A DNA stretch of 31,959 bases from an uncultured Bacilli bacterium (GTDB taxonomy: Bacteria; Bacillota_I; Bacilli_A; RF39; UBA660): NCBI GenBank assembly GCA_947631345.1, contig CANRKW010000004.1, positions 1-31,959 on the forward strand. The letters are read 5' to 3'. The notes below the pieces were generated by a model. That model did no database searches. It worked only from the letters and a program-made list of their open reading frames with translations, and was not told the DNA's origin. Below, in pieces: positions 8,357 through 31,959 of the stretch; the stretch's first letter is position 1; each line of letters opens with the position of its first letter. A program made the position numbers and the translations under genes.

Positions 8357-9394
8357 ATGAATTACTATGATAATATAAGTGAAGAATTAAAAGCCTATTT
8401 TAAAATTTTAGAGCCTAATTTTCCAAAATGGTTAAATGAATATATTAATACTAAAGAATTGTTATCACAACAATATATAAGTGTAACTTGTGGAACAATA
8501 TATTCTGATTTATTTGAAAGTGATTTTTTCTTTTCAAGTTTAGATCATTCAGTAGGGGTTGCTTTAATAATCTGGCATTTTACACATGATAAAATACAAA
8601 CTTTATCTGGACTTTTTCATGATATAGCAACACCTACTTTTAAACATTGTGTGGATTTTATTAATGGTGACTATATGAATCAAGAATCAACTGAAGATTT
8701 AACAACAGAAATAATAAAAAATTCTAAAGAAATAATGGAACTATTAAAAAAAGACAATATTGATATAAAACAAATAGATAACTATCATCTTTATCCAATT
8801 GCGGATAATGATACACCTAAATTATCTTCTGATAGATTAGAATATTCTTTATCTAATGCTTTATTTACACATAAATTATCTAATATAAATGATATTAAAG
8901 AAATATATAATGATATAGAAATTCAAAAAAATGAAGAAAATGAAATAGAATTAGGTTTTAAAACTAAAAAAATAGCAAGAGAATTTGTTAAAATTACAAG
9001 TAAATTATCTATTATATATAGAGAAGATAGAACTAGATATTCTATGCAATTTATAGCAGATATATTAAAAAAATTAAATGAAGAAAATATAATATTAAAG
9101 AAAGATTTATATGAAAAGAAAGAAAGTGAAATAATTAATATTATAGAAAATTCTAAATATAAAGATATATTTAATATATGGAAGAAAGCTAAAGTTGTTA
9201 AATTATCTGATACAAAACCAAATGATGTTTATTATGTACATCACGGGGCTAAAATAAGATATATTGATCCTTTATATAATGGAGAAAGAATATCTAAATG
9301 TTGTAAGATAGCTAAAAAGATGATAGATGATAATTTAAGTTATGATATGAATAAATATGTATATTTAGACTTAAAATTTCCAAATAGTGATTGA
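8357..9394 (+). CDS. HD-domain phosphohydrolase-like protein, 345 aa
   Basis: Resembles HD-superfamily metal-dependent phosphohydrolases. Ligand motifs visible near the N-terminus: SSLDHSVGVA (H64), GLFHDIATP (H88-D89), FKHC (about 96-99), and a later Asp in PKLSSDRLEYS, the order H...HD...D typical of the superfamily. No GTPase, sensor or membrane domain is fused. The substrate cannot be told from sequence; dNTP, (p)ppGpp or cyclic nucleotide hydrolysis are possible. I choose ATG 8357 because GAAGGGA (8342-8348) precedes it and the promoter lies over the upstream ATG. The stop codon is embedded in the -35 of the surface-protein leader promoter, and the two promoters look duplicated, which suggests common regulation with that locus. 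Confidence 0.7.
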   Translation: MNYYDNISEELKAYFKILEPNFPKWLNEYINTKELLSQQYISVTCGTIYSDLFESDFFFSSLDHSVGVALIIWHFTHDKIQTLSGLFHDIATPTFKHCVDFINGDYMNQESTEDLTTEIIKNSKEIMELLKKDNIDIKQIDNYHLYPIADNDTPKLSSDRLEYSLSNALFTHKLSNINDIKEIYNDIEIQKNEENEIELGFKTKKIAREFVKITSKLSIIYREDRTRYSMQFIADILKKLNEENIILKKDLYEKKESEIINIIENSKYKDIFNIWKKAKVVKLSDTKPNDVYYVHHGAKIRYIDPLYNGERISKCCKIAKKMIDDNLSYDMNKYVYLDLKFPNSD

Positions 9395-9419
9395 CTTAAA
9401 GTAAATGAAAGTATAAAAT
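9391..9419 (+). promoter_or_regulatory. Promoter of the phase-variable leader and surface gene
   Basis: TTGACT (9391-9396, overlapping the stop of the HD gene), 17-bp spacer, TAAAAT (9414-9419). Expected start of transcription near 9426, about 28 nt before the leader ORF. Confidence 0.7.
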
Positions 9420-9453
9420 TAAAATATAATAAAAGTAAAGGAGAAAGATAGAT

Positions 9454-9507
9454 ATGAAGTTAACTAGAGAATTTGTACAAAATATTGCACCGGGGGGGGT
9501 AGTTTAG
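9454..9507 (+). CDS. Leader peptide ORF interrupted by a G8 tract
   Basis: A 17-codon ORF with a strong ribosome binding site (AAAGGAG 9437-9443): MKLTREFVQNIAPGGVV then TAG 9505-9507. Codons 13-16 are built from the G tract at 9492-9499. With eight G it stops at 9507. With nine G it would read GGGSLEVKK and on to TAA 9543-9545, inside the 5' arm of the terminator-like hairpin. With seven or ten G it stops immediately at 9500-9502. No phase joins it in frame to the surface protein. The window's right edge carries a second leader (MKLTLFGVQFLIPGG), so MKLT, VQ and PGG are conserved. I infer a regulatory leader, not a functional secreted peptide. Confidence 0.6.
   Translation: MKLTREFVQNIAPGGVV
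9492..9499 (+). repeat. Poly-G tract (G8), candidate slippage hotspot
   Basis: Eight consecutive G in DNA of about 25% G+C. The only other G run of this kind that I see in the window is the one at the right edge, in the same leader context. Confidence 0.9.
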
Positions 9508-9535
9508 AGGTTAAAAAAACTTCATATTTTTTGCT

Positions 9536-9565
9536 GTGCACATAATTTTTTATGTGTATTTTTTT
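9536..9565 (+). terminator. Terminator-like attenuator between leader and surface gene
   Basis: A 10-bp stem (9536-9545 / 9550-9559, seven Watson-Crick pairs CACATAA/TTATGTG plus one A-T and two G-T) with a TTTT loop, running into TTTTTTT (9559-9565). The nine-G form of the leader ORF ends inside its 5' arm. It lies 24 nt before the surface-protein start. Confidence 0.6.
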
Positions 9566-9589
9566 ATGTTGGAAAGGAAAGAGAAGTTT

Positions 9590-11260
9590 ATGAATAAAAA
9601 ATATATGATAATAGGAACAGTGTTTATTTTAATAATAGGTATAGGATTAAGTGTAGCATATTTTACTGGAAAAATAATTGGAAATGGTAGTGATATAGTT
9701 ATTAATATAGCTGATAGATTACAAATAATATTTAATGACGAATTAGAGATAAATAATCAAAATTTAACTGCAGGATGGGAAGAATCAAAAACATTTACAG
9801 TAGAAAATAAAACAAATGATACATATTACTTTAATATAATAATAGAAAACTTACTAAATGAATTAGAAAGTAAAACATTACTATATAAAATAACAAGTGA
9901 TAATGGTTATAATATGAAAAATTTTGTTCCACTTCCAATAAGTTTAGAAACTAAAGATACAATATTAGCAAGTAATATACCAATAGAATCACAAACAACA
10001 CAAACATATAAAATAGAACTGAAGTATTTAAAAACAGATGAAATAGACCAAAGTGATGATATGGGGAAAAACTTTAGTGGAAACTTATTTATAACAGAAG
10101 GTGTAAAACCAACACTATGTGAATTTAAAGCGAATGAGGGAGAAACAATATATGAAGCAATGGAAAGAACATGCAAAAATACATTAACAAGAACTAATTT
10201 TGAAAACATTTTACCAAGCAACGGAAATGAAGAAAATTATAGTTTAGAAAATGATACAGAAAGTGGTGTATATAAAGAAGAAATAGGAAGTGGCTTTATA
10301 GAAGACGGAACACAAAATACAGTATATTATTTTGCAGGAAATGTACAAAACAACTGGGTTTATTTTGCTGATACTTACTGGAGAATAATAAGAACTAATG
10401 AGGATGGAGGAATAAGACTATTATATGCAGGAACTTCACCAGAAGCAGAAGATGCCTATATATCGAGTTCAAAAGCTTTTAATGAAAATAGTAATGATCC
10501 AATGTATGTAGGGTATAAATATGGAGAAAGTGGAAGTTTAGAAACCAACAGGTTAAATACACATAATTCAACAATATTAGGAAGTGACGAAGGAACAGAA
10601 GAAGGTTCACTAAATTGGTGGTATGTAAATCAAATATTAAATCAAAATGATGGTACAAATTCATATGACAATTACGTTAGTAAAACAGCAATATATTGTA
10701 ATGATCGTGCTGTTGCTCCAGGGTATGCTTATACGACTTTGACAGGTACTAGTTTCGATTTTGCACCACATCACAGATTAAATAAAAATAAAAGGCCATC
10801 ATTTAAGTGTGGTGTCAATGCAAGTGGAAGTGTAATAGAAGAAACACAAAATGTTGCAGATAAGTTCAGTACCAACAAATCTTCTGGAGGAAATGGACAA
10901 TTAACATACCCAATTAGTCTAATGACAGCAGATGAAATTGTGTTTGCAGGAGGGAAATGGATTACTCAAAATTCAAGTGCCTATTATTATAGAAATGCGG
11001 TTGGTGATTCGTCAACCGGAACTAATTCTTGGTTTACTATGTCTCCTAGCTACTGGGTTGATCGCACTGGTGCGAGCGTCTTCGTGGTAGCGGATTCCGT
11101 CGTACTTGGTGGTTTGGCCAACCTCGACGTGTTCAATTGGAGCTCCGTTCGCCCGGTTATATCAATAAAATCTTGTGCAACAGTAAAAAGTGGAAATGGA
11201 ACAAGTGGTTCTCCATATGAATTTAGCATAGACGAATCTTGTAAATTAGCAGTTAATTAA
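9590..11260 (+). CDS. Membrane-anchored surface protein with hypervariable lectin-like C-terminal domain, 556 aa
   Basis: Residues about 4-24 (YMIIGTVFILIIGIGLSVAYF) form an uncleaved anchor or signal. Residues 30-190 look like a beta-rich stalk. The remainder (about 200-556) is Cys-containing and Trp/Gly/Tyr-rich, with WVYFADTYWRIIRT and a last part (SAYYYRNA ... SWFTMSPSYW ... VRPVISIKSC) that resembles C-type-lectin/FGE-like folds used as variable binding domains. Codons for about residues 481-522 are about 57% G+C, unlike the rest. Start at ATG 9590 after AAGGAAAGAG; in-frame GTG 9536 and ATG 9566 are upstream but overlap the attenuator. Expression is probably controlled by the G-tract leader. 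The window start carries the end of a second family member. Ligand unknown. Confidence 0.8.
   Translation: MNKKYMIIGTVFILIIGIGLSVAYFTGKIIGNGSDIVINIADRLQIIFNDELEINNQNLTAGWEESKTFTVENKTNDTYYFNIIIENLLNELESKTLLYKITSDNGYNMKNFVPLPISLETKDTILASNIPIESQTTQTYKIELKYLKTDEIDQSDDMGKNFSGNLFITEGVKPTLCEFKANEGETIYEAMERTCKNTLTRTNFENILPSNGNEENYSLENDTESGVYKEEIGSGFIEDGTQNTVYYFAGNVQNNWVYFADTYWRIIRTNEDGGIRLLYAGTSPEAEDAYISSSKAFNENSNDPMYVGYKYGESGSLETNRLNTHNSTILGSDEGTEEGSLNWWYVNQILNQNDGTNSYDNYVSKTAIYCNDRAVAPGYAYTTLTGTSFDFAPHHRLNKNKRPSFKCGVNASGSVIEETQNVADKFSTNKSSGGNGQLTYPISLMTADEIVFAGGKWITQNSSAYYYRNAVGDSSTGTNSWFTMSPSYWVDRTGASVFVVADSVVLGGLANLDVFNWSSVRPVISIKSCATVKSGNGTSGSPYEFSIDESCKLAVN
11030..11160 (+). other. GC-rich hypervariable segment of the surface protein
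   Basis: Bases 11041-11160 are about 57% G+C (68 of 120 by my count). Compared with bases 61-180 of the window, constant codons (Trp, TCT-CCT, TTG, GTT-CGC-CC) alternate with codons that differ in the first two positions but keep C third, for example TCC/GCC, AGC/TAC, GCC/AAC, AAC/GAC, GAC/TAC, GTC/TAC. Confidence 0.65.
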
Positions 11261-31897: not shown

Positions 31898-31914
31898 AAG
31901 GAGAATATGAAAGT

Positions 31915-31959
31915 ATGAAATTAACTCTTTTCGGTGTACAATTTTTGATACCCGGGGGG
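31915..31959 (+). CDS. Second G-tract leader peptide ORF, cut by the window edge
   Basis: MKLTLFGVQFLIPGG, preceded by AAGGAG (31898-31903), running into at least six G (31954-31959) where the window ends. It matches the leader at 9454 in MKLT, VQ and PGG and in distance from ATG to the G tract (39 versus 38 nt). By analogy another surface-protein gene should follow. Confidence 0.55.
   Translation, partial: MKLTLFGVQFLIPGG

Follow-up and report, generated by a model that had tools for sequence, protein, structure and literature searches.

We found that a short leader ahead of a surface protein gene, in the 31,959-nt stretch of DNA analysed here (hereafter the window), carries a run of eight G that is probably a slip-prone on/off switch for that gene. 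The arrangement is best explained as a phase-variable, ribosome-controlled transcription attenuator, a reading in which we have considerable confidence, mainly because the whole module recurs in related genomes. In this proposed mechanism, transcription of the leader would start constitutively, and a ribosome would translate the short leader and cross the G tract. If the tract has 8 G (or 7 or 10), the ribosome would stop just past it and leave; the leader start region could then pair with a segment ahead of the terminator (a pairing here called the lock), the terminator hairpin would form, and RNA polymerase would terminate (OFF). Were DNA slippage in living cells to yield 9 G, the ribosome would cross the 3' arm of the lock and halt in the 5' arm of the terminator, neither lock nor hairpin could form, and the surface gene would be transcribed (ON).

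Anatomy of the locus

The initial annotation described a promoter, a ribosome binding site (RBS), a leader ORF with G8, a 10-bp hairpin followed by T7, and a surface gene. All of these parts can be read directly in the sequence (Table 1), and the anatomy holds as it was given, except that a second stem closing over the leader start had been missed. The coordinates and the three-frame arithmetic were also correct: on recomputing the stops, leaders with 7 or 10 G end 3 nt past the tract, those with 8 G end 8 nt past it (at 9507, 28 nt ahead of the hairpin), and those with 9 G end 46 nt past it, inside the hairpin. By itself this arithmetic proves little: shuffling the spacer gave the same one-open-frame layout 416 times in 1000 (42%).

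Table 1. Features of the leader locus and of a second leader at the end of the window.
Feature	Position	Strand	Remarks
Leader promoter, TTGACT-17-TAAAAT	9391-9419	+	-35 at 9391-9396, -10 at 9414-9419; 10/12 match
Leader RBS, AAAGGAG	9437-9443	+	Read directly
Leader ORF with 8 G, MKLTREFVQNIAPGGVV	9454-9507	+	ATG 9454, TAG 9505-9507; OFF form
G8 tract, proposed slippage site	9492-9499	+	Read directly
Lock stem, 5' arm, covering the leader start codon	9452-9461	+	
Lock stem, 3' arm	9518-9527	+	10 bp, perfect with 9452-9461; between OFF stops and terminator
TAA reached by the 9-G frame only (ON)	9543-9545	+	Inside terminator 5' arm
Terminator hairpin	9536-9559	+	10 pairs, loop of 4, then T7 at 9559-9565
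Surface gene RBS region	9571-9584	+	Read directly
Putatively controlled gene, 556 aa, membrane-anchored	9590-11260	+	ATG 9590; large paralogous family
Second leader of the same kind	31898-31959	+	RBS, ATG 31915, MKLTLFGVQFLIPGG..., at least 6 G; truncated where the window stops

The window has a GC content of 25%. The locus is preceded by dnaG, rpoD, and trmK and followed by a tyrosyl-tRNA synthetase gene; a 359-aa protein encoded between the housekeeping genes and the leader locus has no Pfam or NCBIfam match. A tRNA-like reading of GGGTAGTTTAGAGG was rejected, as ARAGORN finds no tRNA there.

No other complete G or C run in the window is longer than 6 nt; the end of the window clips a 6-G run at 31954-31959. 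By folding, the hairpin has an energy of -9.7 kcal/mol, with two G-C and two G-U pairs. Its hairpin-plus-T score was matched by 1 of 400 shuffles of positions 9500-9590 and by none of 8 shuffles of the whole window (one strand); four other plus-strand sites reach it, one behind a tRNA gene, two between convergent genes, and one in another intergenic stretch. A strict terminator scan of 8500-11000, which requires 3 G-C pairs, returned no terminator and misses this hairpin because it has only two such pairs. The promoter is one of 23 matches, within expectation from shuffles (20.9). The minimum-energy fold of 9425-9600 contains both the lock stem and the hairpin (z -1.47), and the fold of 9446-9545 alone is unremarkable (z -0.22). 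The frequency of the frame layout among shuffled spacers would speak for a mere chance arrangement, to which we nonetheless give next to no credence, because 43 distinct sequences, as well as the window end, carry the same module; the locus is thus more than chance.

A family of leaders in related genomes

Leaders of this kind are present in six of nine genomes of one related genus. A pattern search recovered 32 of them in five genomes, with no matches to the reversed control pattern. A looser pattern, whose control also matches in G001, G005, G006, G007, and G009, adds the leaders of G002, all of which lie at contig ends. Three of the nine genomes yielded no leader in these pattern searches, and the G-runs of G008 and G009 were counted and left out of the reading. 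Based on RpoD, the window belongs to this genus or a close one, since its RpoD shares 87-90% identity with the full-length proteins of G005-G008 and 97% with a fragment in G001; the same search returned only distant sigma factors from G002, G003, and G004, and a 70-residue piece (73%) from G009.

After merging sequences identical around the tract, we counted 43 distinct uncut leaders, including that of the window, of which 40 have 8 G, two have 9 G, and one has 7 G, all tract lengths being assembly consensus values. Dropped before this count were loci judged to be coding or otherwise not leaders (L107 with 10 G, L108 with 7 G, and the 6-G runs in L080, L097, L098, and L146), along with three further tracts cut at a sequence end. 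Both 9-G leaders are in G007, where one of them (L054) is the same as an 8-G leader (L145) from the ATG to the tract and over the first 17 nt past the tract; the 7-G leader is in G001, at two contig ends. Tract length therefore does vary among paralogous copies. These copies with 7, 8, and 9 G, along with the recurring frame layout described below, support the phase-variable attenuator of the initial annotation, in which slippage would alter termination and so switch the gene. Two leader-like relics, L105 and L124, have a stop codon ahead of the G tract and are probably decayed switches.

At least ten contigs of the relatives, as well as the window, terminate in or shortly behind a leader tract (within about 40 nt), so our leader counts are lower bounds. 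Such contig ends, like the near-identical leaders before many paralogs of one genome, might also be expected if the leader were a homology box, conserved for recombination between paralogous surface genes, with the G tract marking or promoting exchange. As the explanation of the module this is improbable, since it would not account for a frame that stays open into the hairpin, for the T runs, for lock pairing specific to each lineage, or for leaders before proteins with clearly different N-termini; a homology-box role may exist in addition to the attenuator.

Beyond the genus, the family-wide pattern that includes the hairpin matched in 4 of 386 genomes, with G189 the only one outside the genus and judged a chance match. 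The pattern without the hairpin, with exactly 8 G, matched in 29 of the 386 genomes vs. 34 for the reversed control, so that this search is at background level outside the genus. We read 29 loci from it (L159-L187, three of them from the genus itself), and for seven more places outside the genus the matched string alone. Of the loci read, those outside the genus were coding tracts, promoter spacers, or unclear, the sole leader-like one being L161 in G056, whose contig ends 3 nt past the tract. Among phage records, 53 had a match, all at 80-90% identity, with the 20 listed spanning 37-50 nt; the best of those listed (Bacillus phage G, E 9e-4) was discounted, as it covers the end of the upstream gene and not the leader.

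Frame layout and predicted ON/OFF states

For the analysis of reading frames, we hand-picked 35 leaders that have downstream sequence, and did so ahead of counting the frames; the set leaves out 8 of the 43 leaders (short downstream sequence), the decayed L105 and L124, and L132 (start missing). Most of the leaders have 12-16 codons ahead of the tract. The best upstream promoter match is 11-12 of 12 positions in 27 of the 35 (a count with no shuffle control), and the assigned hairpins, including that of the window, start 29-42 nt past the tract, with folding energies of -8.3 to -18.9 kcal/mol.

We scored the layout as present if one tract-length class stops in or beyond the hairpin and both others stop at least 12 nt ahead of it. 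This layout is present in 33 of the 35 leaders (null mean 0.30), and the OFF stops end 18-34 nt ahead of the hairpin. Grouped automatically, seven of nine clusters have the layout (P=0.0008). This grouping spreads related G007 leaders over three clusters; with the G007 leaders joined to the G001/G003/G005 type, five of seven merged lineages have it (P=0.006). Both p values are optimistic because the lineages share ancestry.

The claim of the initial annotation that 9 G alone reads into the terminator is borne out as a recurring layout, 9 G being the ON class in 29 of the 35 leaders. The ON class is 7/10 G in three others (L037, L041, and L049) and 8 G in L045, and in L040 and L079 two classes reach the hairpin. 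By this frame rule, five leaders are ON as assembled (L045, L046, L054, L040, and L079) and 30 are OFF, including that of the window. The downstream ON peptide is conserved in G006 even as different classes reach it (7 in L037, 8 in L045, and 9 in L053), a pattern to be expected where read-through is what counts and the phase of entry drifts.

The near invariance of G8 could also reflect slippage that is not genetic, with a fixed run of 8 G on which a fraction of the ribosomes shift by -1 or which RNA polymerase lengthens by one G, so that read-through would leak at a set level with no heritable phases. The sequence G GGG GGT is a -1 slippery sequence, and a -1 shift on 8 G would yield the 9-G peptide wherever the ON class is 9. 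An extended product of this kind fits the 8-G leaders among those 29 and does not extend to all members, as L037, L041, and L049 would need the other shift and L045 none. Given also the existing copies with 7 and 9 G, and the frequency of 8 G (16 of 19) in promoter spacers that are not translated, we consider this explanation unlikely. Several observations weigh against the phase-variable attenuator itself. For a contingency locus, the tract varies strikingly little in length (40 of 43 at 8 G); L040 and L079 each have two classes that reach the hairpin; the lock pairing stays within the shuffle range in four leaders and is only moderately specific; three of the nine genomes yielded no leader; and the terminator stems are AT-rich, that of the window with its two G-C pairs included.

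A predicted lock stem over the leader start

In the window, the start codon falls within ATATGAAGTT, which pairs with AACTTCATAT at every position. The duplex of the start region and the spacer has a predicted energy of -15.1 kcal/mol, equalled in 1.5% of 200 shuffles. In relatives these two sites have different sequences that again pair with each other (AACTATGA with TCATAGTT, and TGAAAAAGATAA with TTATCTTTTTCA), and in G006 the stem involves the RBS itself. The pairing is better than 95% of shuffles in 31 of the 35 leaders; in L034, L045, L079, and L139 it falls within the shuffle range (p above 0.05), and for L139 an upstream in-frame ATG was used, which leaves the stops unchanged and may have weakened the lock result.

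Among 11 representatives, start regions pair with their own spacers at -12.7 kcal/mol vs. -9.9 kcal/mol with foreign ones (permutation p 0.0001; p 0.0002 and 0.0009 in two reduced sets of nine). The specificity is moderate, because the exchange matrix seldom puts the own partner first (rows, 4 of 11; columns, 2 of 11). Ribosomes in the ON frame alone would open the stem, as its 3' arm comes after the OFF stops and before the terminator; in many leaders this arm joins a T run, and in the window it runs into one. The lock may shut leader translation in OFF transcripts, or may act as an early terminator or pause. As far as our literature search shows, such pairing between a leader start region and the RNA ahead of the terminator is new here.

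Surface genes downstream of the leaders

The 556-aa protein has an N-terminal membrane anchor and no Pfam or NCBIfam match, and is probably a surface protein. Its homologues number 4,440 among 7,998 scored candidates, with 43, 45, and 49 matches in three genomes of 1.0-1.4 Mb (some of them pieces of one gene), and several of these paralogs are preceded by a leader with exactly eight G. Most of the 120 homologues listed are 810-870 aa long and are aligned over 98-100% of the 556-aa query, and therefore carry extra segments. The search of viral contigs with the surface protein gave no match. Upstream of the paralogs at L004, L007, L013, and L017 there is no leader; a divergent stretch that reads, at the DNA level, like an XRE-type regulator lies there.

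The 3' part of the gene (about 11031-11180) has a GC content of 0.45-0.58 in a genome of 25% GC and looks like a variable region. On contig 9 of G001 (L201, G001:C9:3500-8700), a G8 leader is followed by a paralog in two overlapping frames, a bAvd-like protein of 134 aa (30.9 bits, short of the curated 40-bit cut-off), and a reverse transcriptase (68.1 bits against a cut-off of 29.6). This set under a leader is a probable diversity-generating retroelement, for which no template repeat was found near the reverse transcriptase. Reverse transcriptase domains of any kind are present in eight of the nine genomes of the genus.

Downstream of the leaders, the readable genes encode membrane-anchored, surface-type proteins, some with clearly different N-termini; no gene was read in 6 of the 35 cases, and the product in L040 is unclear. 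This bears on the possibility of an ordinary leader attenuator that senses a metabolite or stress, through glycine or ribosome stalling, with a tract that merely encodes Gly. The short leader forms do end with two or more Gly codons, and in trp-type attenuation (summarised in PMC3894217) a leader ORF and the ribosome position decide whether the terminator forms, as proposed here. Here, however, none of the genes read downstream is biosynthetic or for transport, we recognised no alternative antiterminator, and the variable would be DNA length rather than amino-acid supply. Further, G tracts of equal length are found in untranslated promoter spacers, and Rfam covariance models gave no match in 9300-9700 at E up to 5. 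We consider a sensing attenuator highly improbable.

G tracts elsewhere in the genus

Besides the leaders, 19 G tracts in the genus lie between TTGACA or TTGACT and TATAAT-like hexamers, 16 of them with 8 G, two with 7 and one with 9; a 20th (L176) is from outside the genus and was left out. The -35/-10 spacing is 18 nt in 12 of the 19 and 15-19 nt in all, and we regard these spacer tracts as candidate phase-variable promoters. They include L103, L110, L111, L116, L118, L120, L131, L133-L135, L138, and L140-L143. The prevalence of eight in promoters as well as in leaders makes it less likely that the leader peptide specifically requires glycines, or that the tract exists chiefly for ribosomal frameshifting. 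A conserved motif of fixed length was dropped in view of the promoter-spacer tracts and the leaders with 7 and 9 G.

G tracts are also present in coding sequence, in genes whose products, named by our reading of the sequence, are glycosyltransferase-like (L040), prepilin-like with GFTLIELL and 10 G (L107), a repeat-type surface protein (L123), and membrane proteins (L109 and L121). Spacer and coding tracts together suggest a general use of G tracts in the genus. We are evenly divided over a wider reading, in which the G-tract leader, the lock over its own start, and the terminator would form a portable module, dispersed as a genome-wide phasome in uncultured gut Bacilli. In the OFF frames the lock would stop leader translation and so render the switch digital; the surface proteins, a hypervariable and partly retroelement-associated set, would each be turned on independently, in combination with phase-variable promoters.

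Comparison with known switches

The initial annotation regarded the joining of phase variation and attenuation in one leader as unusual, which is fair, although it is not new in kind. Danne et al. (2014; PMC3894217) showed a phase-variable leader attenuator with GCAGA repeats at pil1 of Streptococcus gallolyticus and presented it as an original mechanism in that one streptococcus. The pil1 mechanism was shown via variants, chloramphenicol, and mutants, and the attenuator of pil3 is supported by variants (PMC3894217, PMC5891635). Both pil1 and pil3 share with the window leader a slippage-prone repeat in a translated leader ORF, a premature terminator ahead of surface genes, and a frame that sets the ribosome stop either well before or inside/beyond the hairpin (PMC3894217). 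Likewise, a simple repeat here lies inside what reads as a leader ORF with an RBS, sequence and folding predict, after the leader and ahead of the surface gene, an intrinsic terminator that would end transcription early, and the number of repeat units would shift the stop into or beyond that terminator, with one such class in 33 of 35 leaders.

The OFF stop of pil1 is 39 or 49 bp upstream of the terminator (PMC3894217 gives both figures), compared to 18-34 nt here. The present leaders also differ in having a homopolymeric G tract instead of GCAGA repeats, a short leader, AT-rich terminators, many copies per genome, accompanying promoter and coding G tracts, and a second stem over the leader start, of which the passages of PMC3894217 consulted make no mention. 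In open-licence literature, at the level of titles and the starts of abstracts, we found no homopolymeric case and no second organism with a pil1-type attenuator. The kind of mechanism is thus already known, and what appears to be new, as far as our literature search shows, is that the repeat is homopolymeric, that many copies are spread across the genus ahead of several surface families, that there is a lock stem, and that promoter and coding tracts occur alongside. The logic of pil1 would then recur in a different bacterial lineage, in a module present in many copies and based on a repeat of one nucleotide. Dozens of natural variants would make the rules of ribosome-blocked termination readable, and for uncultured gut bacteria the set of surface proteins that is ON in a particular cell would be predictable from DNA alone.

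Poly-G and poly-C contingency tracts of Neisseria, Campylobacter, and Helicobacter usually lie within a gene or its promoter, whereas the leader class described here would act through an attenuator. Short G tracts are likewise reported to switch surface genes at the contingency loci of these three genera (PMC6321876, PMC5320596).
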